NCBI RefSeq assembly: GCF_900091615.1
Contig: NZ_FMIA01000002.1
Span: 4,774,001-4,838,000 of the forward strand
DNA: 64,000 nt
From: Micromonospora yangpuensis
GTDB lineage: Bacteria; Actinomycetota; Actinomycetes; Mycobacteriales; Micromonosporaceae
Reading direction: 5' to 3'
The notes below the pieces were generated by a model that did not search any database, was not told the origin of the DNA, and saw nothing but the letters and a program-made list of their open reading frames with translations. Below, one piece after another: positions 7,503 through 56,413 of the stretch (positions are counted from its first letter, which is position 1; every line of letters starts with the position of its first letter). The translations under genes and the position numbers were made by a program.

Positions 7503-7585
7503 TAAGGAAGGGCCCCCTGTTAACAGCCCGCTGGTGAGAAGGGTGCCCTTCTCTACCGAAAGCGTTAACAGGGGGCCCTTCCTTA
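7503..7585 (+). repeat. Dispersed hairpin repeat, double-arm copy 1
   Basis: A perfect 22-bp inverted repeat (7503-7524 and 7564-7585; TAAGGAAGGGCCCCC at the left end) flanks an inner hairpin GAGAAGGGTGCCCTTCTC and the core TACCGAAAGC. It lies between convergent argG and the pyruvyl transferase gene and could act as a terminator in both directions. The right end supplies the TAA stop of the leftward gene (7583-7585). Confidence 0.9.
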
Positions 7586-19646: not shown

Positions 19647-19735
19647 TAAGGAAGGGCCCCTTGTTAACGCTTCCGGTAGAGAAGGGCACCCCTCTCACCA
19701 CCGGGCCGTCGCCGGTAACAAGGGGCCCTTCCAAA
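19647..19735 (-). repeat. Dispersed hairpin repeat, double-arm copy (copy 4)
   Basis: TAAGGAAGGGCCCCTTGTTAAC at the left and GGTAACAAGGGGCCCTTCC at the right form the outer arms. The inner unit (19647-19698) carries GCTTCCGGTAGAG and a short hairpin. It separates convergent phoD and yjbQ and probably works as a two-way terminator. Confidence 0.88.
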
Positions 19736-42589: not shown

Positions 42590-44158
42590 ATGCATACCCC
42601 CATGGCCCCCGAGCCTTCGTACGGCGATTCTCAGAACATCGACGGAACGACACTTTTCGACGATTGCGGCAGGCCTGTTCCAGCGCACCCGATCGGCCGG
42701 CGGGCGATTCTCGCCGCCGCCGGAGCCACCGCCGTCGCGCCGTTTCTCGCCGGTTCCCCGGCGACCGCCGCCGCCGGCCCGCACACCCCGAACAGCCGCC
42801 CCGGCAAGAAGCCGGCGCGAGGACACTACCTGATCAAAGGGGCCGCGCTGGTCTCCGTCGACCCGGCGATCGGTAACCGGGCCAAGGCCGACATCGAGGT
42901 ACGCGACGGCCGGATCGTCCAGGTCGGCACCAATCTCACGCCCCGCGGCGCCAAAGTGATCGACGCCTCCCGCATGATCGCCATGCCCGGATTCGTGGAA
43001 ACCCACTATCACATGTGGAGTGCCCTCGGCCGCAATTTCGTCTCCACCGGTTTCGAGTACTTCGCCGCGAAATCGGCGACCGTCGCCGCGTACCGGCCGG
43101 ACGACTTCTACCACAGCGTGCTGCTGGGTCTGGTGGAGTGCGCCAGCGCCGGCATCACCACGGTCAACAACTGGTCGCACAACACCCGGGGCCCGGAGTA
43201 CGCCGACGCCGAGCTGCACGCCCACGCCGACGGCCTGGTCCGGGCCCGCTACTCGTACGGGCACCGGGACGGTCAGCCCGGCACCCAACCGATCGACTTC
43301 GCCGACATCGACCGGGTGACCCGTACCTGGTTCGGCACCAGGTCCCCGTTTGACGGCTTGGTCCATCTGGGAGTGAACCTGCGCGGGCCGGGACAGCTGG
43401 CGAACTTCCTGGTCGAGATGACCGAGGTGCAGAAGCGCAAACTGCCTGTCTCGGTGCACTCCGGTCAGGGACCCACCACCGCCGTACGCGCCGCCGAACT
43501 GGAGCGGATGGGCGTACTCGGGCCGGACTTCCTCCTCTGCCACGCCCTGCCGTTCGACGAGGCGGACCGGCAGGCGATGGTCCGCACCGGCGCACCGGTC
43601 AGCTTCTCGGTGCACTCCGAGTTGCGGCTCGGCACCGCCGGCGGGTTCCACGGCCAACTGCTGCGGATGCTGGCCGCCGGGATCACCGTCTCGCTGTCGT
43701 TCGACGCCAGCTCGTTGGCCCCGATCAACATGTTCGAGTCGATGAACGTGGCCTGGAACCTGGGTATCCCGTACCTGGGTACGGACACCGCCGACCTGCC
43801 GGCGGTAGTGTTCCGGCAGGCGATCGAGATGGCCACCATCAACGGCGCGAAGGCCCTCGGCCTGGAGAAGGTCACCGGGTCGATCACCCCCGGCAAGCGG
43901 GCCGACATCATCCTGATCCGGGCCGACGACCTGAACATCGCCCCCGTCGGCGACCTGGAGTCGACGGTGGTGCGCTCGGCCACCCCGGCGAACATCGACA
44001 CGGTGCTCATCGACGGTCGGATCGTTAAACGGAACAGGTCGGTGGTCAGCCACGACGTCGACAAGGTGGTCCGGAACGCGGCGGCAGCCGCGCACGCCGT
44101 CCGTACCCGGGCCGGTGGGATCCTCACCCCGACCACCTCGAAACCCCCCGCGTTCTGA
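42590..44158 (+). CDS. Exported amidohydrolase (cytosine deaminase-like)
   Basis: 522 aa from ATG at 42590. No ribosome site is seen; TAGCTT at 42578-42583 fits a -10 for a leaderless transcript. An internal twin-arginine-like signal starts near residue 37 (IGRRAILAAAGATAVAPFLAG). The amidohydrolase barrel has the metal pair in GFVETHYHMWSALGRNF, a distal His in LLCHALPFDEADRQ, and the C-terminal KVTGSITPGKRADIILI block of deaminase-type enzymes. It probably hydrolyses a C-N bond outside the membrane; the substrate is unknown. The region before the signal is unusually long for Tat proteins. Confidence 0.85.
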   Translation: MHTPMAPEPSYGDSQNIDGTTLFDDCGRPVPAHPIGRRAILAAAGATAVAPFLAGSPATAAAGPHTPNSRPGKKPARGHYLIKGAALVSVDPAIGNRAKADIEVRDGRIVQVGTNLTPRGAKVIDASRMIAMPGFVETHYHMWSALGRNFVSTGFEYFAAKSATVAAYRPDDFYHSVLLGLVECASAGITTVNNWSHNTRGPEYADAELHAHADGLVRARYSYGHRDGQPGTQPIDFADIDRVTRTWFGTRSPFDGLVHLGVNLRGPGQLANFLVEMTEVQKRKLPVSVHSGQGPTTAVRAAELERMGVLGPDFLLCHALPFDEADRQAMVRTGAPVSFSVHSELRLGTAGGFHGQLLRMLAAGITVSLSFDASSLAPINMFESMNVAWNLGIPYLGTDTADLPAVVFRQAIEMATINGAKALGLEKVTGSITPGKRADIILIRADDLNIAPVGDLESTVVRSATPANIDTVLIDGRIVKRNRSVVSHDVDKVVRNAAAAAHAVRTRAGGILTPTTSKPPAF

Positions 44159-45779: not shown

Positions 45780-45860
45780 AAGGAAGGGCCCCTTGTTAAC
45801 GGGCGGTGGTGAGCGGGGTACCCCTCTCTACCGAAAGCGTTAACAAGGGGCCCTTCCTTA
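45780..45860 (+). repeat. Dispersed hairpin repeat, double-arm copy (copy 9)
   Basis: AAGGAAGGGCCCCTTGTTAAC (left) and its complement (right, 45840-45860) enclose an inner GAGCGGGGTACCCCTCTC-type hairpin and TACCGAAAGC. It lies between convergent genes and supplies the TAA stop (45858-45860) of the ROK gene. Confidence 0.9.
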
Positions 45861-46784
45861 CACCTGGGCGGGGACGGCCTCGCGGGCCAGGGTGACCGCA
45901 CCGAGCAGGGCGGCGTCGTCGGCGAACCTGGAGAGCACCAGCTCCGGGCGGTGCGGCAGCACCTCGGTGAGCCGGTCGGTGAGCAAGCCCCGGATCAGCT
46001 CGCTGCCGGCCATCCCACCGACCAGCACCACCCGCTGCGGATCGAGCAGCAGGCAGCACGTGACCAGGTGTCGGGCCAGCTCGTCGAGGCGGGTCAGGAG
46101 CGCCGCACGCAGGGCACCCGGAGCCCCGGAGCGGTCGGCGAGCCCCGCCGCGCCGCCGGCGACGCCCAGTTCGGCGGCGAGGCCGTCCAGGGCCCGGCCG
46201 GAGAACTCCAGCTCCAGCATGGTTCCGGGCCAGGGTGTGCCACTGACGGCGTACCCGATCTCGCCGGCCGCGCCGTGGTGCCCGGCGAGCACGGTGCCGC
46301 GCACCGTCACCGCTGCCGCGACCCCGGTGCCGAGCCCGACGACCAGGCCGGGGTCGGCGTCGCGCAGGGCACCGAGGCGCAGCTCGGCCAGGGCTGCGGC
46401 GTTCAGGTCGTTGTCGACGGCGACGGTGGCCACCCCGAGCCGGGCCCGGACCGCCTCGGCCAGCCGCAGGCGTTCCCAGCCGGGCACGTTCGGAGCCAGG
46501 TCGATGCCGTCGGGGCGGACCACCCCGGGCGAGGCGATCCCGGCGGCGTCGACCGTGCCGCCGTGCGCGGCGACCAGCTTCGCGGCGAGGGTCAGGGCCC
46601 GCTCCAGGGCCTGTGGCGCACCCTGCTCGGCGTGCGTCGGCACCCGCTCGTGGGCGAGCAGCCGGCCCTGGCCGTCGGCCACCCCGACGGCCATCTTGGT
46701 GCCGCCGAAGTCGACGCCGAGCAGCAGCCCGTGCTCCCCGCTGTCGACCGCCGCCGACCGTCCCGGCAACCGGACACTGGTCAT
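45858..46784 (-). CDS. ROK-family sugar kinase-like protein
   Basis: 308 aa from ATG at 46784, overlapping the upstream lyase stop by 4 bp. The ATP-binding phosphate loop is LLLGVDFGGTKMAVGVADGQG and the catalytic Asp lies in VAVDNDLNAAALAE. GAAGEIGYAV corresponds to the ROK segment normally ending GEIGH, and the Cys-x-Cys-Gly-x2-Gly-Cys zinc motif is absent (GTPWPGTMLELEF). It is thus a divergent ROK kinase, perhaps with altered substrate. As last gene of the catabolic cluster it may phosphorylate a released sugar or polyol. Its stop codon is inside the adjacent repeat. Confidence 0.85.
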   Translation of the reverse strand: MTSVRLPGRSAAVDSGEHGLLLGVDFGGTKMAVGVADGQGRLLAHERVPTHAEQGAPQALERALTLAAKLVAAHGGTVDAAGIASPGVVRPDGIDLAPNVPGWERLRLAEAVRARLGVATVAVDNDLNAAALAELRLGALRDADPGLVVGLGTGVAAAVTVRGTVLAGHHGAAGEIGYAVSGTPWPGTMLELEFSGRALDGLAAELGVAGGAAGLADRSGAPGALRAALLTRLDELARHLVTCCLLLDPQRVVLVGGMAGSELIRGLLTDRLTEVLPHRPELVLSRFADDAALLGAVTLAREAVPAQV

Positions 46785-48337
46785 CGGACCACTGCCCCGG
46801 CCGAGTCGGGGCCGGCCGACGCCGGCCCGACCGTCGCCGCACCAGAGCCCGCCGACGTCACACCAGAACCGGCCGAGTCGGGGCCGGCCGCCATCGCCTC
46901 GGCGGTGGCGTCGAGGGCGGTGTCGGCGGCGGCGAGCCGCTCGCGGACGGCGGCCAGCCGTCGGGACACCTGGTCGAACCGGGCGCGCACCAGGTGGACC
47001 TGGGTGCGGACCGCCTCGGTGCCCGGGCCGTCGGCCTGGGCCCGGTCCAGCACCTGGGCCGGCTGGACGGCGGCGGTGATCAGGTCGGTGACGGCGTGGT
47101 CGGTCAGGGGTGCGGTAAGTCCCTCGGCGGCCTGCCGGACGGTCTCGGCGGTCCAGGTCGCCGGTTGTCCGGCGCGGACCAGCCGGCCGACCACCGAGTG
47201 TGCGGCCCGGAACGGTACGCCGTGGCGGGTGAGCGCGTCGGCGGCGGCGGTCGTGGTGGCCCCGGAGGCGACGATCTCGGCCGCGGACGGTGGCTCCAGC
47301 GGCTCGATCTCGGCGAGGAAGCCGCCGAGCAGGGCGAAGAACCGGTCGGCGCGGTCGTTGCTCTCCCAGAGCCGGACCTGCACGTCGGTGGTGGCGTTGT
47401 TGGAGTCCTCCCACCAGGCCGCGCCGACGTTGTTGAGCACCGAGGCGGCGTCGGCGGCGGCCTGACCGGCGTAGGAGACCAGATGTTCCAGCACCACCGG
47501 GTTGCGCTTCTGCGGCATGATGCTGCTGCCCTGGGTGAAGTCGCCGGGGGTGGTCACCCAGCGCCAGCTCAGCCAGTCCATCAGGGTCCGGGCCAGCCGG
47601 GCGCCGGTGGCCAGGGACCGGGCGTTGTGGGTGCCCACCTGGACCAGGTGGTCGGCGCCGGCCACCGCCTCGTACGAGTTGGTGACCAGGGCGGCGAAGC
47701 CGAGCAGCTCGGCGACCCGGGCGGGGGCGATGTCCAGGTCGGTGCCGGCGAAGGCGCAGGAGCCCAGCGGCGAGGTGTTCAGCGTGTCGATCAGGTCGGC
47801 GTAGCCGAGGGCCTCACCGGCCAGCGCCTCGGCGTACCCGGTCAGGGCGTGGCCGATGGTGGTGGGCTGGGCCGGGCGGCGGTGGGTGTAGCCGGTGATC
47901 ACCACGTCGGCGTACCGGTGGGCGGCGTCCAGGGCGGTGGCCCCGGTGGCGAGGACCCGGTCGAGCACCCCGATCAGCTGGTCGCGCAGGAGCATCCGGA
48001 ACACCCCGGCGTCGAGGTCGTTGCGGCTGCGCGCCATCTGCACGTCCAGCTCACCGGTGGGGATGCCGCAGGCCGCCGCGAGTCGCTTCTCCACCAGGTA
48101 GTAGGTGTCCTCGAAGCTGCCGTCGAAGTCCGGCGCGGGCGCGGTGTCGGCGCGCAGCTCGGCCAACCCGCGCAGCAGCCGGGCCCCCCGGTCGGCCGGC
48201 ACCAGGCCCTGCTCGGTCAGCATCACCACGTGCGCCTGGCTGGCCCGGACCATCGCCGGGAAGAGGTACCCGACGTGGTGGTCGTAGGTGGGCCGCAGGT
48301 GGTGCCGCTGGTACGTGGTCAGCGCGGGTGTGCTCAT
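46781..48337 (-). CDS. Argininosuccinate lyase-family C-N lyase
   Basis: 518 aa from ATG at 48337, longer than ArgH (~460) by a low-complexity C-terminus (AAGPDSAGSGVTSAGSG). It has the superfamily signature GSSIMPQKRNP at 270-280 with catalytic Ser, SRNDLDAG at about 104-111 and TGYTHRRPAQPTTIGH at 148-163 (Thr151/His152). The acid-base residues are kept, but THLQ of true ArgH is THRR here. Members eliminate fumarate or a related acid from N-substituted aspartates. Placement among transport and hydrolase genes argues for catabolism rather than arginine synthesis. Substrate unknown. Confidence 0.85.
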   Translation of the reverse strand: MSTPALTTYQRHHLRPTYDHHVGYLFPAMVRASQAHVVMLTEQGLVPADRGARLLRGLAELRADTAPAPDFDGSFEDTYYLVEKRLAAACGIPTGELDVQMARSRNDLDAGVFRMLLRDQLIGVLDRVLATGATALDAAHRYADVVITGYTHRRPAQPTTIGHALTGYAEALAGEALGYADLIDTLNTSPLGSCAFAGTDLDIAPARVAELLGFAALVTNSYEAVAGADHLVQVGTHNARSLATGARLARTLMDWLSWRWVTTPGDFTQGSSIMPQKRNPVVLEHLVSYAGQAAADAASVLNNVGAAWWEDSNNATTDVQVRLWESNDRADRFFALLGGFLAEIEPLEPPSAAEIVASGATTTAAADALTRHGVPFRAAHSVVGRLVRAGQPATWTAETVRQAAEGLTAPLTDHAVTDLITAAVQPAQVLDRAQADGPGTEAVRTQVHLVRARFDQVSRRLAAVRERLAAADTALDATAEAMAAGPDSAGSGVTSAGSGAATVGPASAGPDSAGAVVR

Positions 48338-48408
48338 CAGAGGATCCTTACTTCCTTCCAGGCCGGGGGGCGACTCGGATCGCCGGCCCCGGCGGTGGGG
48401 TCGGCCGG

Positions 48409-49356
48409 TCAGTCGGTCAGGCCGAGCAGCCGTTCGGCGTTCCCGGCGAAGATCGCGCGCAGGTGGTCGTCGGGCAGCCCCAGCTCCCGGCAGATCCGCA
48501 GCTGGTCGTCGAGGTAGCGGGTGACGTAGCCACGCGGGAACCAGGACGAGTCGCTGCCGAAGACGATCCGCTGCGGCCCGATGGTCTCGTAGCAGCGGCG
48601 GAAAAGGTCCTCCAGGGTCAGCTTGTACGGCATCCAGCGCACCCACTGGTTGGACCCGGAGGTGTCGACGTGGATGTTGGGGCAGCCCCACGCGGCGAAG
48701 AGCAGCTCCTGGACGTACTGCACGCCGAAGTGCGGGACGACCACGGCCAGCTCGGGAAAGCGGCGGGCCATCCGGGCCAGCTCCTCGGGGCCGCCGTACC
48801 GGCCGAAGGTGAGCCCACCGGCGCTGCCGTAGTGTCCGATATGGATTAGCACCGGCACGCCGAGGCGCTGGGCGGTGCCCCAGAGCGGGTCGAGGTCGGC
48901 GCCGTCCAGCGGGCCGCGCAGCAGCGGGGCGAAGAGCTTCAGCCCGCGCAGGCCCCGTTCGGTCACCGCGCGCTCCAGCTCGGCGGCGGCGTCGGGGGCG
49001 TACGGATCGTGGTGGGCGAAGCCGAGCAGCACGTCCGGGTGGCGGTCGACCACGTCGGCCACGGCGTCGTTGCCGCCGCCGGTGACGAAGACCGCCCGCC
49101 GGACGCGTACCGCCCGCAGTTCCTGCGCCCACCGGTCGGCCTCGTCCTGCCAGCGCGGCGCGGGCGGCTCCGGGTCGGGAAAGCCCCAGGCCTGCCGCCA
49201 CGCCCGCGCCTGCGGCGCGGAGGCGGCGGTACGGACGGCCCGGTCGTGCTCCCCGCCGGGGTGCATCCCGGCGGCCTGCTCGCAGGCGTGGATCGTCTCG
49301 TCGGCGGCGATCCGGAAGTGCAGGTGGAAGTCGACGACGTCGAGCCCGCGGTCCAT
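48409..49356 (-). CDS. Amidohydrolase-2 family metal-dependent hydrolase
   Basis: 315 aa from ATG at 49356 with GGAGGGGG upstream; the GTG at 49362 overlaps the creatininase stop but lies too near the ribosome site. TIM-barrel motifs are VVDFHLHF (first metal His pair), LRGLKLFAP, VLIHIGHYG, VVPHFG and RIVFGSDSSWFPRGY with the catalytic Asp. The family includes decarboxylases and hydrolases of cyclic or aromatic acids. It is part of the ABC/creatininase operon, so it probably acts on the imported compound or a product. Substrate not identified. Confidence 0.88.
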   Translation of the reverse strand: MDRGLDVVDFHLHFRIAADETIHACEQAAGMHPGGEHDRAVRTAASAPQARAWRQAWGFPDPEPPAPRWQDEADRWAQELRAVRVRRAVFVTGGGNDAVADVVDRHPDVLLGFAHHDPYAPDAAAELERAVTERGLRGLKLFAPLLRGPLDGADLDPLWGTAQRLGVPVLIHIGHYGSAGGLTFGRYGGPEELARMARRFPELAVVVPHFGVQYVQELLFAAWGCPNIHVDTSGSNQWVRWMPYKLTLEDLFRRCYETIGPQRIVFGSDSSWFPRGYVTRYLDDQLRICRELGLPDDHLRAIFAGNAERLLGLTD

Positions 49357-49358
49357 GG

Positions 49359-50306
49359 TCACGCCCCCTCCGGCCCGGCGGTCGGCAGCGGGTCGGCGGT
49401 GGGGGCGGCCGGCGACGGGGCGGCGACCCAGGCGGCGACGATCTCCCGGAGCCGGGCGCCGGCGAGCTGCCGGACCCGCCGACCGATGGCCTCGTCGGCC
49501 AGCGAGATGTGCCCGGACCAGCCCTGCCAGGGATCGGGTCGGGACTCCACCAGCACGTACGGGTGGCTCACCGGCAGCTTCGGCTTCGGCGGCAGGTCCT
49601 CGACCGCGTCGAGGCGTACCGCGTCGGGGTCGAAGCCGAGCACCCCGGAGGTCTCGTACGCGCCGCCGTGGCCGCGCGCCGGCAGGTCGCCGTAGATGTC
49701 GGTGGTCTCCGCCGGGGTGACCAGCTGGAACCAGTTGACCAGCAGCAGGCTGGCGGTGCGCCGGCCGGAGACCCACTCCATCGCGGCCCGGACGGTGGAC
49801 ATGTTGGCGTCGTGACCGTTGACGATCAGCAGTCGGGAGAAGCCGGTGGCGACGATGCCCTCGATCACGTCGGCCAGGTAGCCGACCGCGATCTCCGGGC
49901 GGATCGCCACGGTGCCGGGCCACGGTCGGGTCTGTCCGGGGCAGGCCGCGTACGGCACGGCCGGGAAGAGCACCCCGCGCGGCCCGGCGCCGTCGCCGGC
50001 GCTCTCGGCCGCAGAACCGTCGCCGGCGCTCTCGGCCGCAGAACCGTCGCCGGCACTCTCGGCCGCGAAGCCCTCGGCGAGGATGAGGTCGGTGCCGAGC
50101 GGCAGGTGCGGGCCGTGCCACTCGACCGCGCCGACCGGCAGCACCGCGAAGTCCGCCGCGGCGGCGACCGCCGCGAGTTCACCGCCGGGCACCCGGCTGA
50201 CCGGGACCAGCCCACCGGCCCCGCCGAGGACACCGCCGGCCGGGCCGGCCGGGCCGGGAGTTCCGCCGGCCGCGCCGGACCTCTGAGCAGGGTTCACGCC
50301 GTCCAC
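49359..50306 (-). CDS. Creatininase-family amidohydrolase
   Basis: 315 aa from GTG at 50306, with GGGAGGCGGC upstream; it overlaps the permease stop. Metal ligands are visible: Glu62/His64 and Asp73 in VEWHGPHLPLGTD, His165 in VNGHDAN, and Glu218 in HGGAYETSG. Family members open lactams or cyclic amides (creatinine), or trim peptides (MftE). A 27-bp in-frame triplication adds Ala-Glu-Ser-Ala-Gly-Asp-Gly repeats (about residues 81-107) just after the metal site. The first ~35 residues are Gly/Pro/Ala-rich. Probable second or first enzymatic step of this cluster. Confidence 0.88.
   Translation of the reverse strand: MDGVNPAQRSGAAGGTPGPAGPAGGVLGGAGGLVPVSRVPGGELAAVAAAADFAVLPVGAVEWHGPHLPLGTDLILAEGFAAESAGDGSAAESAGDGSAAESAGDGAGPRGVLFPAVPYAACPGQTRPWPGTVAIRPEIAVGYLADVIEGIVATGFSRLLIVNGHDANMSTVRAAMEWVSGRRTASLLLVNWFQLVTPAETTDIYGDLPARGHGGAYETSGVLGFDPDAVRLDAVEDLPPKPKLPVSHPYVLVESRPDPWQGWSGHISLADEAIGRRVRQLAGARLREIVAAWVAAPSPAAPTADPLPTAGPEGA
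49987..50067 (-). repeat. 27-bp triplication inside creatininase-family gene
   Basis: Three copies of a 27-bp unit (GAACCGTCGCCGGCGCTCTC plus 7 bases). The second copy is the reference and the outer copies differ at one to three bases. It keeps the reading frame. Confidence 0.9.
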
Positions 50307-52081
50307 TTCGCCGCCTCCCGGGTGGCCTGCCGGCCGGACTGCAGCCGGCCGGAGACCACCATCACCACGAAGATCAGCACCACCTGGAGCATGCCGTACG
50401 CCGCGGCGGTGCCGACCTCGAACGAGTACATCCGGTTGTTGATCTCGACCGAGATCGGTGCGGTCTGCGAGGTGTAGATCAGCACCGAGGCGACGAACTC
50501 ACCGACGCCGTTGACGAAGGCGAGCAGCGCGCCGGCGGCCACCCCGGGGATCATCAGCCGCAGGGTCACCGTGCCGAACGCCCGCGCCCAGGAGGCACCC
50601 AGGTTGCGGGCCGCCTCCTCCAACGAGGGGTCGATCTGGGCAAGCGTCGCCGAGCTGGACCGGAACACCAGCGGCAGGAACCGCACGAAGTACGCCAGCG
50701 GCATGATCCAGAAGGTGCCGATCAGCACCTGACCGAAGCTGAACGCGTTGCCGGTGCTGAACGCCGAGATCAGGTTGATCGCGACCACCGTGCCGGGCAG
50801 CGCCCAGGCCAGCATGACCGCCACGTCCAGTAGGGCCCGGCCGCGGAAGTCCAGCCGGCGCACCGCGTACGCGATCAGCACGCCGACCACGACGCAGCCG
50901 ACGGTGGCGATCAGGCTCATCTGCAACGAGTTGAGGATGGGCTGGAACGCGTCCGGGTCGGAGAAGATCGTGACGAAGTTCTGCCAGGTGTACGCGGACG
51001 GGATCACCTCGGTCGTCCAGGAGCCGTCCTCGGAGAACGCCACCAGGCCGATGGTCGCCACCGGGGCCAGCAGGACCATGGTGGCCAGGATCGAGGCGGC
51101 CAGGGCGAGCCACTTGCCGAACGGGTTGGTGATCTCCCGACGGTGCGCGGCGACCCCCTTGGACTGGGAGCGGTAGCTGCGCCGCCCCTCGTACCAGCGC
51201 ATGCCCAGCAGGAACAGCACCGAGACCACCGCGAGCACCGAGGCGTAGGTCGAGGCCATCGGCAGGTCGCCGTTGGTCCGGTTGATGTAGATCTGCATGG
51301 TCATCGTCCGGTCCACCCCGAACAACAACGGCGCGGTGTACGACGCCAGCGAGGTCATGAAGACCAGCAGCGAGGCGGAGACCAGGGCCGGGGTGAGCAT
51401 CGGCAGCAGCACCGTCCGCCAGACCCGGACCCGACCGGCGCCGAGGTTGTAGGCGGCCTCCTCCACCGAGGGGTCCATCCCGGCCAGCGCGGCCGAGGCG
51501 GCCAGGTAGAAGAACGGGTACATGGTGAAGGTGTGCACCACCAGCACCCCGGCGATACCGCTGAACGGCAGCACCGGGTTCTCGGTGCCGAGCAGTTGCT
51601 GCAGGCCACGCGGGAGGATGCCGGTCTCGCTGTAGAGCAGCTGGAAGGAGATCGCCCCGATCAGCGGCGGCAGCGCCGCCGGCACCAGGATGATCGCCTC
51701 GATCAACCGGCGGCCGGGGAACGAGAAGCGCTTGAGCAGGAACGCCATCGCCACGCCGACGATGCCGCAGAGCAGCACGCTGGCCGCGGAGATGACCAGC
51801 GAGGTGACCAGCGCGGAGCGGGCCACCCCCTCGCCGCTGAGGAACCTGCCGTCGTTGGCCACCCCGTCCACTCCGACGCTCTCGGCGAAGGTGGCGAACA
51901 TCGGCTGCACGACGTACCCGAAGAGGATCAGGGCCAGCGGGAAGACCAGCAGGTACGGGAACCAGCGCGAGTTGCTGCCGCCGGAGAACCGGTCGGCCAG
52001 GCGCGGCCGGCGCGACCCGCCGTCCGGGGTGGGGTCCTCGGTGACCGGTGGGATGTTGGCGGCGGTGGGGACAGCGGTCAC
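50294..52081 (-). CDS. ABC transporter permease, two fused permease domains
   Basis: 595 aa from GTG at 52081, overlapping the ATPase stop by 4 bp. Twelve or so helices form two BPD-type permease units. EAA loops are seen at about 205-225 (DPSVEEAAYNLGAGRVRVWRTVLLPML) and 500-520 (DPSLEEAARNLGASWARAFGTVTLRLMIPG). This fused layout is found in Fbp/Afu ferric-ion, polyamine and aminoethylphosphonate-type importers. It would pass substrate from the binding protein at 53467 into the cell. The soluble N-terminus (~45 aa) is Pro/Gly-rich. Confidence 0.93.
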   Translation of the reverse strand: MTAVPTAANIPPVTEDPTPDGGSRRPRLADRFSGGSNSRWFPYLLVFPLALILFGYVVQPMFATFAESVGVDGVANDGRFLSGEGVARSALVTSLVISAASVLLCGIVGVAMAFLLKRFSFPGRRLIEAIILVPAALPPLIGAISFQLLYSETGILPRGLQQLLGTENPVLPFSGIAGVLVVHTFTMYPFFYLAASAALAGMDPSVEEAAYNLGAGRVRVWRTVLLPMLTPALVSASLLVFMTSLASYTAPLLFGVDRTMTMQIYINRTNGDLPMASTYASVLAVVSVLFLLGMRWYEGRRSYRSQSKGVAAHRREITNPFGKWLALAASILATMVLLAPVATIGLVAFSEDGSWTTEVIPSAYTWQNFVTIFSDPDAFQPILNSLQMSLIATVGCVVVGVLIAYAVRRLDFRGRALLDVAVMLAWALPGTVVAINLISAFSTGNAFSFGQVLIGTFWIMPLAYFVRFLPLVFRSSSATLAQIDPSLEEAARNLGASWARAFGTVTLRLMIPGVAAGALLAFVNGVGEFVASVLIYTSQTAPISVEINNRMYSFEVGTAAAYGMLQVVLIFVVMVVSGRLQSGRQATREAAKWTA

Positions 52082-53151
52082 GGCCGCACCACCCACATCC
52101 GCTCCCGGGTCAGTCGCAGCCCGACCTGGTCGTCGACGGCGATCCCGGCCGGTACGTCGATCGCGGCCACCTGCACCGCCTCGCCGGCGACGTCGACGAT
52201 CAGGTTGGTGGCCATCCCGGTGAACTCGACCTCGCGGACCAGGCCGGGCAGCGCGCCCGGCTCGCTTGTCGAGGTCAGGCCGATGTGCTCGGGGCGGACC
52301 GAGACCAGGGCGGTGTCCCCTTCGCGCAGGCCGTGCCCGGCGGGTGCGGCGACCGCGGTCTCGCTGCCCTCGGGCAGTCCGACGGTGACGCTTTCCGCCG
52401 CGGCGGCGACCACCGGCAGGCTCAACACGTTGCTGCGGCCGATGAACCGGGCCACGAAGCTGGTCGCCGGCCGGTGGTAGATCTCCTGCGGGGCGCCGAT
52501 CTGCTGCACCCGGCCGGACTCCATCACCGCGATCCGGTCGGACATCGCCATCGCCTCGGCCTGGTCGTGGGTGACGTAGATGCCGGTGGTGCCGGCCTCC
52601 TTCTGGATCCGGCGGATCTCGGTCCGGGTCTCCTCGCGCAGCTTGGCGTCGAGGTTGGACAGCGGCTCGTCCAGCAGCAGCGTCTTGGGCCGGATGACCA
52701 GCGCCCGGGCCAGCGCGACCCGCTGCTGCTGACCGCCGGAGAGCTCGTCGATGCGCCGGCCGCCGTACCCGGCCAGGTGCACCTGACCGAGGGCCTCCTC
52801 CACCCGGCGCTTCGCCTCGGCCCGGCCGACCTTGCGGATCTTCAGGCCGTACGCGACGTTCTGCCCGACCGACATGTGCGGGAAGAGCGCGTAGTTCTGG
52901 AACACCATGCCGGTGTCCCGCTTGTTCGGCGGGCGGCGGGTGACGTCCTCCTGGCCGAACCGGATCCGGCCGGAGGTGGGAAAGTAGAACCCGGCCACCA
53001 TCCGCAGCGTGGTGGTCTTACCGCAGCCACTCGGGCCGAGCAGGGTGAAGAACTCCCCGGCGGCGATGGTGATGTCGACGTCGTCCACGGCTGCGGTGTC
53101 GCCGCCGCGCGCGAAGCGCTTGCTGACCGACTCCAGCGTGACATCGATCAT
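52078..53151 (-). CDS. ABC transporter ATP-binding protein
   Basis: 357 aa from ATG at 53151 behind AAGGAGGACATC. Walker A is GPSGCGKTT at about 39-47, Q-loop MVFQNYALFPHM, signature ELSGGQQQRVALARAL, Walker B LLLDEPLSNLD and switch His in VTHDQAEAM. The C-terminal TOBE region (RPEHIGLTST, IDVPAGIAVDDQVGLRL) fits the PotA/FbpC/UgpC group. It energises the fused permease encoded next. A repeat unit and a tandem repeat separate it from the binding protein gene upstream, so its own promoter there is possible. Confidence 0.95.
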   Translation of the reverse strand: MIDVTLESVSKRFARGGDTAAVDDVDITIAAGEFFTLLGPSGCGKTTTLRMVAGFYFPTSGRIRFGQEDVTRRPPNKRDTGMVFQNYALFPHMSVGQNVAYGLKIRKVGRAEAKRRVEEALGQVHLAGYGGRRIDELSGGQQQRVALARALVIRPKTLLLDEPLSNLDAKLREETRTEIRRIQKEAGTTGIYVTHDQAEAMAMSDRIAVMESGRVQQIGAPQEIYHRPATSFVARFIGRSNVLSLPVVAAAAESVTVGLPEGSETAVAAPAGHGLREGDTALVSVRPEHIGLTSTSEPGALPGLVREVEFTGMATNLIVDVAGEAVQVAAIDVPAGIAVDDQVGLRLTRERMWVVRP

Positions 53152-53181
53152 GATGTCCTCCTTCAGATGCGCGGGCGGGGT

Positions 53182-53234
53182 GAAAGGAAGGGCCCCTTCT
53201 TAACGCTTCCGGTCGAGAAGGGTCCCCTTCTCAC
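53182..53234 (-). repeat. Dispersed hairpin repeat, single unit (copy 10)
   Basis: GAAAGGAAGGGGCCCCTT-type arm (GAAAGGAAGGGCCCCTTC), GCTTCCGGTCGAG core and a GAGAAGGGTCCCCTTCTC hairpin. It lies 31 bp upstream of the ABC ATPase start, inside the operon-like run. Confidence 0.88.
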
Positions 53235-53342
53235 AGCTCCCGCCGCCGCAACGGCGGGCAACGGGTGCAGCGGCGGGCAGTGCCACCGACTTGGGCCACC
53301 GGGCGGCACGGGCAGCGCCACCGGCAACGCCGCACCACAACG

Positions 53343-53405
53343 GCAGCGCGGGAGCGCCGTGCCGCAGCGCGGGAGCGCCGTGCCGCAGCGCGGGAGCGCC
53401 GTGCC
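53343..53405. repeat. Three exact 21-bp tandem copies
   Basis: Three identical copies of GCAGCGCGGGAGCGCCGTGC plus C, followed by a partial fourth. They lie downstream of the binding-protein gene, 62 bp past its stop. Confidence 0.92.
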
Positions 53406-53466
53406 GCAGCGGAGGTGCAGCGCCGGGGCCGGGACCGGAGTACGCCGGCCCGGCGCGCGTCCGCGG

Positions 53467-54513
53467 TCAGCCCTGGTTCTTGATCTGGCTGTTCCAGTGG
53501 TTGATCCACTCGGTCTCGTTCTTGCCGATCACGTCCCAGTCGACGTCCATCGGCTTGAGGTTCAGCTCGGCCAGCCACTGCGGCTGGTCGGCGATCTCCA
53601 CGGCCGGGATCTGGAAGTAGTCCTTGGCCAGGTCGGCGCGGAGCGAGTCCTCGAAGAGGAACTCCAGGAACTTCTGTGCGCCCTCGGTGTTGCCGCCCTT
53701 GACCGCGCCCAGCCCGTCGACCAGCACCGGGGCGCCGGAGGTCGGCATCACGAAGCCGAACGGCATGTTGGACTGGTTGGCCTGCAGCAGCACGTCCTGG
53801 AGGTTCCAGGCGCTCAGCACGCCCTGCTCACGGGAGAGCTTCAGGTAGAGGTCGGCCGGGTTGGCCGCGTACGAGCCGGTGTTGGCGTCGAGCCGCTTGA
53901 GCCAGTCGTACCCGGGCTGGGGGTTGCTGCCGTCGGGCGAGAGCCGCTGGATCATCGAGGCGTAGATCGAGCGCATGGTGCCGGAGGCGGCCACGTCCCG
54001 GATGATGATCTTGTCTTTCCACTGCGGGTCGAGCAGGTCGTCCCAGTCCTTCGGGGCCTGCTCCGGGGTGAGCGCCTTGTTGTTGTACATGATCACCTCG
54101 GGCAGCAGGATCTCCCCGAACCAGCGACCCTCGGCGTCCTTGTACTGGGCGTCCATCTTGTCGGCGAAGGACGGCTGCCAGGACTCCAGCAGCTCCTCGG
54201 CGGCACCGGCGGAGAGCCCCTGCTGGGTGCCGCCCCACCAGACGTCGGCCTGCGGGTTGGCCTTCTCGGCCCGGACCCGCTCCAGGATCTCCTGGGCGCC
54301 GATGTTGAGGATCTCCACCTTGCCCTGGTACTCGGGGTACTTGGCGGTGAACTTCTCCACCACGAAGTCGGAGACCTTCTTGTCCCGCGCGGTGTAGATG
54401 GTCAGCTTCTCGACGTCCGAGCCGCCGGCGGAGTCCGAGCCGCCACCGCCGCAGGCGGTGCCGGCGGCGAGGACGGTGGCCAGGGCTCCGGCGAGCAGAA
54501 GACGACGTCTCAT
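53467..54513 (-). CDS. ABC transporter substrate-binding lipoprotein
   Basis: 348 aa from ATG at 54513. The signal peptide ends in the lipobox LAAGTAC, so the mature protein is anchored through Cys21. The iron/polyamine-type binding fold is seen in LTIYTARDKKVSDFVVEKFTAKYPEYQGKVEI, QADVWWGGTQQGLSAGA and VMPTSGAPVLVDGLGAVKGG. The YTARDKK start resembles Fbp-type ferric binding proteins, but the tyrosine ligands are not certain. It captures the substrate for the permease/ATPase genes downstream. The ROK regulator gene precedes it by 27 bp. Confidence 0.92.
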   Translation of the reverse strand: MRRRLLLAGALATVLAAGTACGGGGSDSAGGSDVEKLTIYTARDKKVSDFVVEKFTAKYPEYQGKVEILNIGAQEILERVRAEKANPQADVWWGGTQQGLSAGAAEELLESWQPSFADKMDAQYKDAEGRWFGEILLPEVIMYNNKALTPEQAPKDWDDLLDPQWKDKIIIRDVAASGTMRSIYASMIQRLSPDGSNPQPGYDWLKRLDANTGSYAANPADLYLKLSREQGVLSAWNLQDVLLQANQSNMPFGFVMPTSGAPVLVDGLGAVKGGNTEGAQKFLEFLFEDSLRADLAKDYFQIPAVEIADQPQWLAELNLKPMDVDWDVIGKNETEWINHWNSQIKNQG

Positions 54514-54540
54514 GGGTACCTCCGAGGGGAAAGGGATGGT

Positions 54541-55704
54541 TCAGGGGCTGGGAAGCAGGGTGGGCAGGCCGCTCGCGGCGGCCGCCAGGGCGTAGCTGAC
54601 CGCGCCGTGCAGGACGGCCCGGTCGCCGAGCACCGCCCGGCGTACCTCGGTGGTGGCCGGCGCGGCGGCGGACACCAGGTGTTGGAGCCGCTCCACGGCG
54701 GCGTCGTCGAGTTGGGCGGCGGCCCCGCTGAGCAGGACCCGACCCGGGTCGATCACGCAGACACAGGAGACGATCAGCCGGGACCAGGCCCGCAACAACT
54801 CGTCCAGGTACGCCCCGGCGCGCTCGTCGGTGCGGGCCAGCTCGACCAGGGCGGCCACCGGGGTGTCCGGCCGGCGGCCGGGGGCCAGCGCGACTACCCG
54901 TTCGGCGATGGCGTTCTCCGACCAGCGGGCCTCGAACGGGCCGATGCCGTCGTGTCCCCGGTCGGTGGCGTCCAGCGGCAGGAAGCCGACCTCTCCGGCG
55001 GCCCCGCCGGCACCGCGGCGTACCTGGCCGTCGAGGACCAGCCCGGCGCCGATGCCGTCGGCGACGTGCAGCAGCAGCAGGTCGGCCACGTCGCTGCCGG
55101 CCCCGGCGGCGTGTTCGCCGGCGGCCATCAGGTTGACGTCGTTGTCCACCACGACCGGTACGCCGAGGTGCCGCTGCACCGACTCCCCTATCGGTCGCCC
55201 CTCCACCAGGCCGACCGAGGGGGCCAGCCGGACCGCGCCGCCGGAGGAGACGCCGGGGGCGGCGATGGCCACCCCGCGCAGCGCCGGCAGCCCGTCACCG
55301 GCCAGTTCGGGTACGGACCGGCAGATGGTGTCGACGATGTCCCCGGTCAACCGGACCGCCCGGTGGGCGACCACGTTGCCGTCGCTGTCGGCAATCTCGC
55401 AGCTGATCCGGGCCGGCTCCAGGGCGACGGCGGCGACCAGCTCGGCGCGGGGGTTGAACTCCAGCATGGCGCGCGGGCGACCGGCCCGGGAGGTGCCGGG
55501 GCCCCGCTCGATCAGGTAACCCTCGGCGATCAGTTCGCGGACCAGCGGGGTGAGCGTGGCGGGGCTCAACCCGGTGAGCTCGGTCAGCTCGGCGCGGGAG
55601 AGCAGCCGGACTTGGCGGGCGGTGGAGATCACGGAAAGCCGCTTGATCTCCTTCGCCCGCTCCCGGCTCACCGGGCTCGTTGGTGGTGTCACCACGTCCG
55701 TCAC
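54541..55704 (-). CDS. ROK-family transcriptional regulator
   Basis: 387 aa from GTG at 55704. A winged helix-turn-helix fills residues ~20-80 (RQVRLLSRAELTELTGLSPATLTPLVRELIAEGYL). The ROK domain follows with LRGVAIAAPGVSSGGAV, VVVDNDVNLMAAGEHA and GIGAGLVLDGQVRRGAGGAAGEVGFLPL. The ROK zinc cysteines are absent. Such regulators repress sugar or glycoside operons and release DNA on sugar binding. It is the first gene of the leftward cluster and probably controls itself and the ABC/hydrolase genes. A sugar-containing effector is inferred from the family. Confidence 0.92.
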   Translation of the reverse strand: MTDVVTPPTSPVSRERAKEIKRLSVISTARQVRLLSRAELTELTGLSPATLTPLVRELIAEGYLIERGPGTSRAGRPRAMLEFNPRAELVAAVALEPARISCEIADSDGNVVAHRAVRLTGDIVDTICRSVPELAGDGLPALRGVAIAAPGVSSGGAVRLAPSVGLVEGRPIGESVQRHLGVPVVVDNDVNLMAAGEHAAGAGSDVADLLLLHVADGIGAGLVLDGQVRRGAGGAAGEVGFLPLDATDRGHDGIGPFEARWSENAIAERVVALAPGRRPDTPVAALVELARTDERAGAYLDELLRAWSRLIVSCVCVIDPGRVLLSGAAAQLDDAAVERLQHLVSAAAPATTEVRRAVLGDRAVLHGAVSYALAAAASGLPTLLPSP

Positions 55705-56198: not shown

Positions 56199-56305
56199 CC
56201 CGGCACCGGGCGGGACGGTGGTGGCAGGCGGGATCAGCCACCACCGTCCCACCCGGCCGGTCCACGCCGCCTCCCGCCGGCCGGCGGACAGCCGCACCCG
56301 GCCGC

Positions 56306-56413
56306 ACCGTCAGCGCAGCCGGTAGCCGGCCCACCGTCAGCGCAGCCGGTAGCCGGCCCACCGTCAGCGCAGCCGGTAGCCGGCCCACCGTCAGCGCAGC
56401 CGGTAGACGGCCA
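56306..56413. repeat. 27-bp tandem repeat spanning the 3' end of the membrane-protein gene
   Basis: Four copies of a 27-bp unit (ACCGTCAGCGCAGCCGGTAG plus 7 bases) start at 56306, 56333, 56360 and 56387. The last copy contains the stop and final codons of the leftward gene; the other three repeat those codons beyond its stop. Confidence 0.9.

Follow-up and report, generated by a model that had tools for sequence, protein, structure and literature searches.

A lyase-centred gene cluster of Micromonospora yangpuensis with relatives in several phyla: a candidate route for the catabolism of amino-sugar conjugates, possibly glucosaminyl-malate

Bacillithiol (Cys-GlcN-O-malate) is a bacterial glutathione substitute composed of cysteine, an amino sugar, and a C4 acid, the last of which would leave as fumarate. 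We know of no lyase step in bacillithiol metabolism, and its fate outside the cell is, to our knowledge, undescribed. The subject of this study is a 64,000-nucleotide stretch of the genome of the soil actinobacterium M. yangpuensis (contig NZ_FMIA01000002.1, positions 4,774,001 to 4,838,000; hereafter the window), which carries a cluster of eight genes encoding two ROK-family proteins, an ABC transporter with its binding protein, a creatininase-family and an amidohydrolase-family protein, and a lyase of the argininosuccinate lyase (ASL) superfamily (Table 1). An earlier note on this DNA described an uptake-and-catabolism cluster with a logic of uptake, opening, lyase, and kinase, and that logic is retained here. 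Tentatively, we favor a cluster that imports and catabolizes a glucosamine compound bearing a C4 dicarboxylic acid, with glucosaminyl-malate, a remnant of bacillithiol, as the likeliest such compound. A broader proposal, which we hold with slightly less confidence, is that several phyla eat bacillithiol: a PIG-L enzyme would free the cysteine, a glucosaminyl-malate lyase would yield fumarate and glucosamine, and kinases from three families together with deaminases of two kinds would pass the sugar to glycolysis. The window organism, without BshC, would probably make no bacillithiol of its own.

Two groups of lyases are compared below, clade A from Actinomycetota, which includes the window enzyme, and clade B from other phyla. 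For both, the best PDB sequence match is ethylenediaminedisuccinate (EDDS) lyase, which by fold is practically tied with ASLs. The cluster lyase falls under the cut-off of the argH model (TIGR00838; 218.8 vs 279.5 bits), and a separate ArgH scoring 564 bits is encoded elsewhere in the window genome. A house-keeping ArgH is rejected on these two grounds together; the cut-off alone is not decisive, because the clade-B lyases L020 (329.5 bits) and L013 (301.4 bits) score above it. The possibility named in the earlier note, that this might be the sole argininosuccinate lyase of the organism, is excluded by the 564-bit protein. Alignment rows of both clades retain the superfamily elimination motifs TH, SRND, and SSxMPQKxN with the following Glu, and both have lost the arginine-side loop of ArgH (YNRDxQED). 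The window lyase has WWEDSNNATTDVQ at this position, and EDSN[NT]ATT occupies it in 119 of 120 homologues among the matches listed.

The leaving-group pocket is conserved across the two clades, comprising Val, Asp, and His in 20/20 actinobacterial and 15/15 clade-B lyases. This combination is not found in EDDS lyase or in most ArgH proteins; 17 other aligned rows include 12 with Asp and 12 with Tyr at pocket positions. The Asp290/Tyr320 pair of EDDS lyase, altered in its engineered variant, is absent, and the aligned residues of the cluster lyase are Val and Asp. Release of fumarate by this enzyme is fairly supported by the retained motifs, and it is probably an ASL-family lyase of new specificity at the core of an amino-sugar pathway.

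Relatives were collected in several ways. A wide scan of genome contigs, with the superfamily motif as pattern, returned at least 80 loci, mostly other ASL-family loci; four of them (L006–L009) are close relatives of the window cluster, and 30 others were placed in the tree, 15 of which were called clade B. L033 was counted with the other rows, and L026 and L232–L236 are other ASL paralogues that stand outside the counts. For Actinomycetota, 18 of the 63 matches outside the window genome were chosen for spread and joined to L006–L009, giving 22 loci. For Paenibacillaceae, 55 of 61 matches were read, one further match being L020, and 16 of 17 alphaproteobacterial matches were taken, the 17th lying in the genome of L019. 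Gene counts refer to the 9 kb around each lyase; homologues were sought by tblastn from a small number of reference proteins, which may miss distant ones, and some stretches stop at contig ends, so that absences are uncertain.

Other genomes carry these genes in an identical order, and the gene set is therefore not a chance assembly. Comparison thus establishes both the set and its conservation, and the conserved neighbourhood that the earlier note proposed to search for exists, with related clusters in Actinomycetota, Bacillota, and Alphaproteobacteria. Lyase A was found in 49 of the 151 genomes examined from the genus and in 10 of the 394 from the class, both counts including the window genome; it also occurs in 5/120 genomes of the family of Arthrobacter (L009) and 3/120 of that of Saccharopolyspora (L007). 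A sugar kinase is present in 21 of the 22 actinobacterial loci, in support of the sugar-kinase step proposed earlier. It belongs to the ROK family in Micromonospora and a putative Jiangella, and to the PfkB family in Saccharopolyspora, Actinomadura, a putative Saccharomonospora, and Arthrobacter-like genomes (L007–L009 among them). Proteins of the glucosamine-6-phosphate-deaminase type are encoded in 7/22 loci, the window cluster not being one of them. One of each kind was tested: for the SIS protein the best model was NagB-II (188 bits, cut-off 430), and the NagB-like protein scored 297 bits (cut-off 326).

A PIG-L gene lies divergent to the regulator in 9/22 actinobacterial loci (L006, L163, L165–L167, L172–L174, L178), a count to which L006 was added, its PIG-L lying beyond the 9-kb limit. 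The N-termini of these proteins resemble export signals by eye, and the one protein scanned, that of L006, contains PIG-L, NPCBM_assoc, and CBM9 domains. One Micromonospora locus, L173 (8124–10991), resembles a decaying cluster: the transporter and creatininase genes are absent between regulator and amidohydrolase, the amidohydrolase match is partial, and the lyase match is in three pieces.

The closest solved relative of the binding protein by sequence is a pyridoxal-phosphate binder (PDB entry 6wce, E 8e-24), and a further match is 4r72 (E 5e-20), which we take to be the sugar-phosphate binder AfuA; ferric-ion binders are mixed in and below. The earlier assignment as an Fbp-type binding lipoprotein thus holds for the family, but the nearest relatives bind phosphorylated small molecules. 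A 2-aminoethylphosphonate transporter was rejected by equivalog scores (phnS2, 90.4 against a cut-off of 392.75; PhnT2, 356 against 457.7; PhnU2, 141.5 against 593.25), the binding protein falling under every phnS and phnS2 cut-off. Similarly, the creatininase-family protein fails the equivalog models for creatininase (73.5 < 235 bits) and MftE (65.9 < 172 bits). A strict creatininase pattern fitted 17 of 88 scanned loci, all 17 of which have NxHDAN or NxHDGN (NGHDAN in the window). The predicted structure of the amidohydrolase (predicted local distance difference test score, 87) has as its nearest folds an uncharacterised protein, aromatic-acid decarboxylases, and PDC hydrolase, in a fold search that is not decisive. 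In the 22 clade-A loci the creatininase occurs alone in five, the amidohydrolase alone in nine, both in seven, and neither in one. The two are mutually exclusive in Paenibacillaceae loci and in actinobacterial loci outside Micromonospora, suggesting that they may be alternative enzymes for one hydrolytic step.

Lyase B was found in 53 of 104 Paenibacillaceae genomes (E 1e-130). Near the 55 lyases read in this family, creatininase occurs alone in 30 loci, amidohydrolase alone in 19, both in none, and neither in six, and a big PIG-L protein is encoded in 32. The typical creatininase-type locus comprises a regulator, a transporter 48–59% identical to that of the window, the big PIG-L, creatininase, lyase, a BadF kinase, and a small PIG-L; the typical amidohydrolase-type locus comprises lyase, amidohydrolase, and a CUT1 transporter. 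For the BadF kinase tested (L020), NagK was the sole match (103 bits, cut-off 370). Kinases of three families (ROK, PfkB, and BadF) thus substitute for each other across the clusters, a replacement that comparison of the loci makes plain. In Alphaproteobacteria lyase B is present in 17 of 385 genomes, five of these with a more distant paralogue, and a big PIG-L gene is adjacent in 11 of the 15 closer loci (11 from the class search and four from the wider scan). Gammaproteobacterial L015 and L017 and acidobacterial L025 combine a big PIG-L and lyase with a sodium:solute symporter. The best NCBIfam match of the big PIG-L proteins of L013, L015, L018, and L020 is the mycothiol-conjugate amidase Mca, far under its cut-off.

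Two further observations concern the wider family. Near the alphaproteobacterial lyase/PIG-L pairs L221, L223, and L226 lie genes that by eye resemble those of peptide-type ABC transporters, with no CUT1 match. In Ammoniphilus (L026, 4837–16340), two ASL-family lyases lie by a SIS protein (best match, fructoselysine-6-phosphate deglycase) and an octopine-dehydrogenase-type protein, which is likely another catabolic use of the family, judging by these neighbours.

The link to bacillithiol comes from genes beside Paenibacillaceae lyases. The lyase of L150 is followed by a BadF kinase, DUF1806 (Pfam, 166 bits; presumably YojF), and BshB2 (280 bits, cut-off 195), and in L212 a BshB2 (288 bits, same cut-off) and YojF are present beside the lyase. 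Both BshB2 genes are second copies, each genome having another over the cut-off. Genes for cysteine metabolism also occur: cysteine synthase A and a D-cysteine-desulfhydrase-type enzyme beside the lyase of L209, a rhodanese best matching 3-mercaptopyruvate sulfurtransferase in L149, a binding protein best matching the cystine family in L152, and, in two loci with neither hydrolase, a serine-dehydratase-alpha protein that we take to be a CyuA-type cysteine desulfidase. Amidohydrolase-type loci contain Thioredoxin_9 (6/19) and rhodanese (5/19). Of these 19 loci, nine carry one or more of the thiol families, BshB2, or YojF, compared with 0 of 20 control windows, which were placed at round coordinates, not at random, in seven of the genomes. 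Because the genomes are related, no weight is given to P values for this contrast or for the gene counts. A wider tally of any thiol family (41/55) was set aside as inflated by small PIG-L proteins matching BshB2. Of 24 cluster genomes tested, 11 have a BshC over its cut-off, nine from Bacillota and two acidobacterial; it was not found in the other 13, the window genome included, some of these genomes being incomplete. The cluster is therefore not tied to making bacillithiol, and its presence in genomes where BshC was not found is what scavenging would predict.

A putative sequence of steps, with their order and every activity predicted, would run as follows. A PIG-L amidase, encoded beside the cluster in many relatives, would strip the N-acyl group outside the cell or in the cytosol, and the binding-protein transporter would take up the anionic product. 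Creatininase and/or amidohydrolase would then hydrolyse an amide or lactam, possibly a lactam formed between the free 2-amine and a malyl carboxylate. The lyase would eliminate fumarate and free glucosamine, which the ROK kinase would convert to glucosamine-6-phosphate; a deaminase, in-cluster in some relatives, would lead to glycolysis, and the first ROK protein would sense the amino sugar. Cleavage of a C–O bond, as in a malyl glycoside, would fit the N-deacylases better than cleavage of a C–N bond. Among these elements, an amino-sugar product and fumarate release are fairly supported by gene content and motifs, better than the name given to the hypothetical substrate.

Several observations weigh against glucosaminyl-malate and bacillithiol. 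In L212 the reading frame of the lyase is interrupted and a BadF kinase was not found, and of the 30 over-cut-off BshB2 genes in 28 of the 104 Paenibacillaceae genomes only two adjoin a lyase, the other 28 lying by no lyase match. The small PIG-L proteins of creatininase-type Paenibacillaceae loci score about 95–129 bits, under the BshB2 cut-off, and for the one tested against the PDB, MshB and chitobiose deacetylases rank above BshB. The thiol genes may have no relation to the lyase beside them, and the loci do not count as independent cases. Neither the 22 actinobacterial loci nor the window cluster showed any thiol family. For the secreted PIG-L, the best match in the window genome reaches 24.8 bits and is no close homologue, and the CBM9 and NPCBM domains on this protein in relatives suggest a larger substrate, perhaps a polymer. 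Identity between clades A and B is low (26–32%), the tree does not resolve them as sisters, and L033, which groups weakly with B (82/45), is without the pocket residues. The mutual exclusion of creatininase and amidohydrolase likewise allows other readings, both activities being predicted only.

The strongest competitor, itself on the unlikely side, is that the same steps act on another amino-sugar conjugate, such as an Amadori or Heyns product of aspartate or asparagine, with a C–N split, or a fragment of an exopolymer of unknown kind. The kinases and glucosamine-6-phosphate-deaminase-like proteins, the carbohydrate-binding domains of the secreted PIG-L, and the lack of thiol genes in actinobacterial loci would all fit such a compound, whose amide, lactam, or lactone could be acted on by creatininase and amidohydrolase. 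The frequency of PIG-L genes is at odds with Amadori and Heyns products, which call for no N-deacylase, and the presence of BshB2, YojF, and cysteine genes next to lyases of Paenibacillaceae speaks for glucosaminyl-malate instead.

Less probable by a good way is a C–S lyase acting on an S-(2-succino) thiol (succinated bacillithiol, mycothiol, or cysteine) to release fumarate, with the other genes recycling the amino sugar. Sulfur genes and NtaA/DmoA-family monooxygenases occur beside some Paenibacillaceae lyases, and the Mca matches of the four big PIG-L proteins point the same way. Reportedly, a 2022 paper in J Biol Chem has an S-(2-succino) lyase replacing the monooxygenase YxeK; that enzyme probably belongs to the same superfamily. 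The near-constant sugar kinase and the deaminases of the actinobacterial loci, their want of thiol genes, and the sugar-type CUT1 transporters found with the lyase elsewhere argue against sulfur chemistry.

It is very unlikely that the enzyme is a C–N lyase for an aminopolycarboxylate or metal-chelating N-substituted aspartate in the manner of EDDS lyase, as the earlier note proposed. The PDB match and the fold tie with ASLs favor it, but Asp290/Tyr320 are replaced by Val/Asp, EDDS lyase has TQ where TH is found here, and sugar kinases, deaminases, and PIG-L genes surround the lyase. A chelator also finds no echo in the relatives of the binding protein or in the variable neighbours, which are amino-sugar genes, with cysteine and bacillithiol genes in Paenibacillaceae. 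Least likely of all is a redundant argininosuccinate lyase that came to lie in a transport operon with which it has nothing to do: it would account for the ASL fold and motifs, but not for the sub-threshold argH score, the true ArgH elsewhere, the lost arginine loop, or a gene set kept across genera.

In the window itself the cluster comprises eight intact, co-directional open reading frames (ORFs) on the minus strand, running from 55704 to 45858, and the Pfam family agrees for each. The genome (6.5 Mb, two contigs) has its closest named homologues in Micromonospora, and the regulator begins with an N-terminal helix-turn-helix recognized by eye. The number and direction of the genes are as first described, whereas 4-bp overlaps, said to join most of them, are found at four of seven junctions (ATPase/permease, permease/creatininase, creatininase/amidohydrolase, and lyase/kinase), a count that depends on the chosen start codons; at the remaining three the genes stand 27, 315, and 71 bp apart. 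The starts concerned are GTG 52081 for the permease (longest ORF from 52096), GTG 50297 for the creatininase (longest ORF from 50306), and GTG 49362, with overlap, or ATG 49356 for the amidohydrolase.

Table 1. Features of the cluster, in window positions
Feature	Positions	Strand	Family or other detail
ROK-family transcriptional regulator, 387 aa	54541..55704	-	PF00480 E 1.3e-29, residues 99-372
SBP_bac_6 solute-binding lipoprotein, 348 aa	53467..54513	-	PF13343 E 7.5e-24
315-bp gap between binding protein and ATPase	53152..53466	.	21-bp tandem repeat 53343-53411 and 20-bp element copy 53185-53204
ABC transporter ATPase, 357 aa	52078..53151	-	PF00005 (ABC_tran) E 3.3e-35, PF08402 (TOBE_2)
Fused two-domain ABC permease	50294..52081	-	PF00528 (BPD_transp_1), two stretches in one protein
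Creatininase-family hydrolase	49359..50297	-	PF02633 E 5e-43; motifs VEWHGPHLPLGTD, NGHDAN, GGAYE
Amidohydro_2 hydrolase	48409..49362	-	PF04909 E 1.1e-39
ASL-superfamily lyase, not ArgH, 518 aa	46781..48337	-	PF00206 (Lyase_1) and PF14698 (ASL_C2)
ROK-family kinase	45858..46784	-	PF00480 E 2e-31; ATG 46784, 4-bp overlap with lyase

Repeats are found within and around the cluster. A 27-bp tandem repeat lies inside the creatininase gene (49990–50066; 2.9 copies, 98% matches), and another is located upstream of the cluster (56298–56412; 4.2 copies). The 20-bp element GTTAACAAGGGGCCCTTCCT occurs in 13 copies in the window at up to three mismatches, compared with none in 100 shuffles; copies lie, for example, at 45781–45858, 53185–53204, 7505–7583, and 19649–19733, and three pairs face each other as inverted repeats. 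Downstream of the cluster and in the opposite direction, 42590–44158 (+) encodes what appears by eye to be an exported amidohydrolase of the deaminase/chlorohydrolase type.

If glucosaminyl-malate is the substrate, a function would be assigned to a family of lyases that mostly appear in public records as 'argininosuccinate lyase' or 'lyase family protein', the salvage of a low-molecular-weight thiol would be described, and actinobacteria without BshC would be living on a metabolite of Bacillota. Should the substrate prove to be different, an amino-sugar pathway that releases fumarate and can exchange its kinases would still seem new, on an incomplete check of the literature.

Among described systems, the cluster lyase differs from ArgH in its lower score, its replaced YNRDxQED loop, and the presence of a true ArgH in the same genome, and from EDDS lyase of Chelativorans in having Val/Asp for D290/Y320, TH for TQ, and sugar-type neighbour genes. 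The creatininase-family protein shares PF02633 with creatininase and MftE, but lies under both equivalog cut-offs. With respect to N-acetylglucosamine and glucosamine catabolism, the tested proteins of the NagK/NagB type are under their cut-offs, the set is enlarged by a fumarate-type lyase, creatininase, and amidohydrolase, and the window cluster is without a deaminase; the likeness resides in the NagK-like, PfkB, or ROK kinases and the NagB- and NagB-II-like deaminases of the relatives. Bacillithiol metabolism differs in that neither BshB2 nor YojF is encoded in the window and BshC is missing from its genome, but it is approached most closely in L150 and L212, where an over-cut-off BshB2 and YojF stand next to the lyase.

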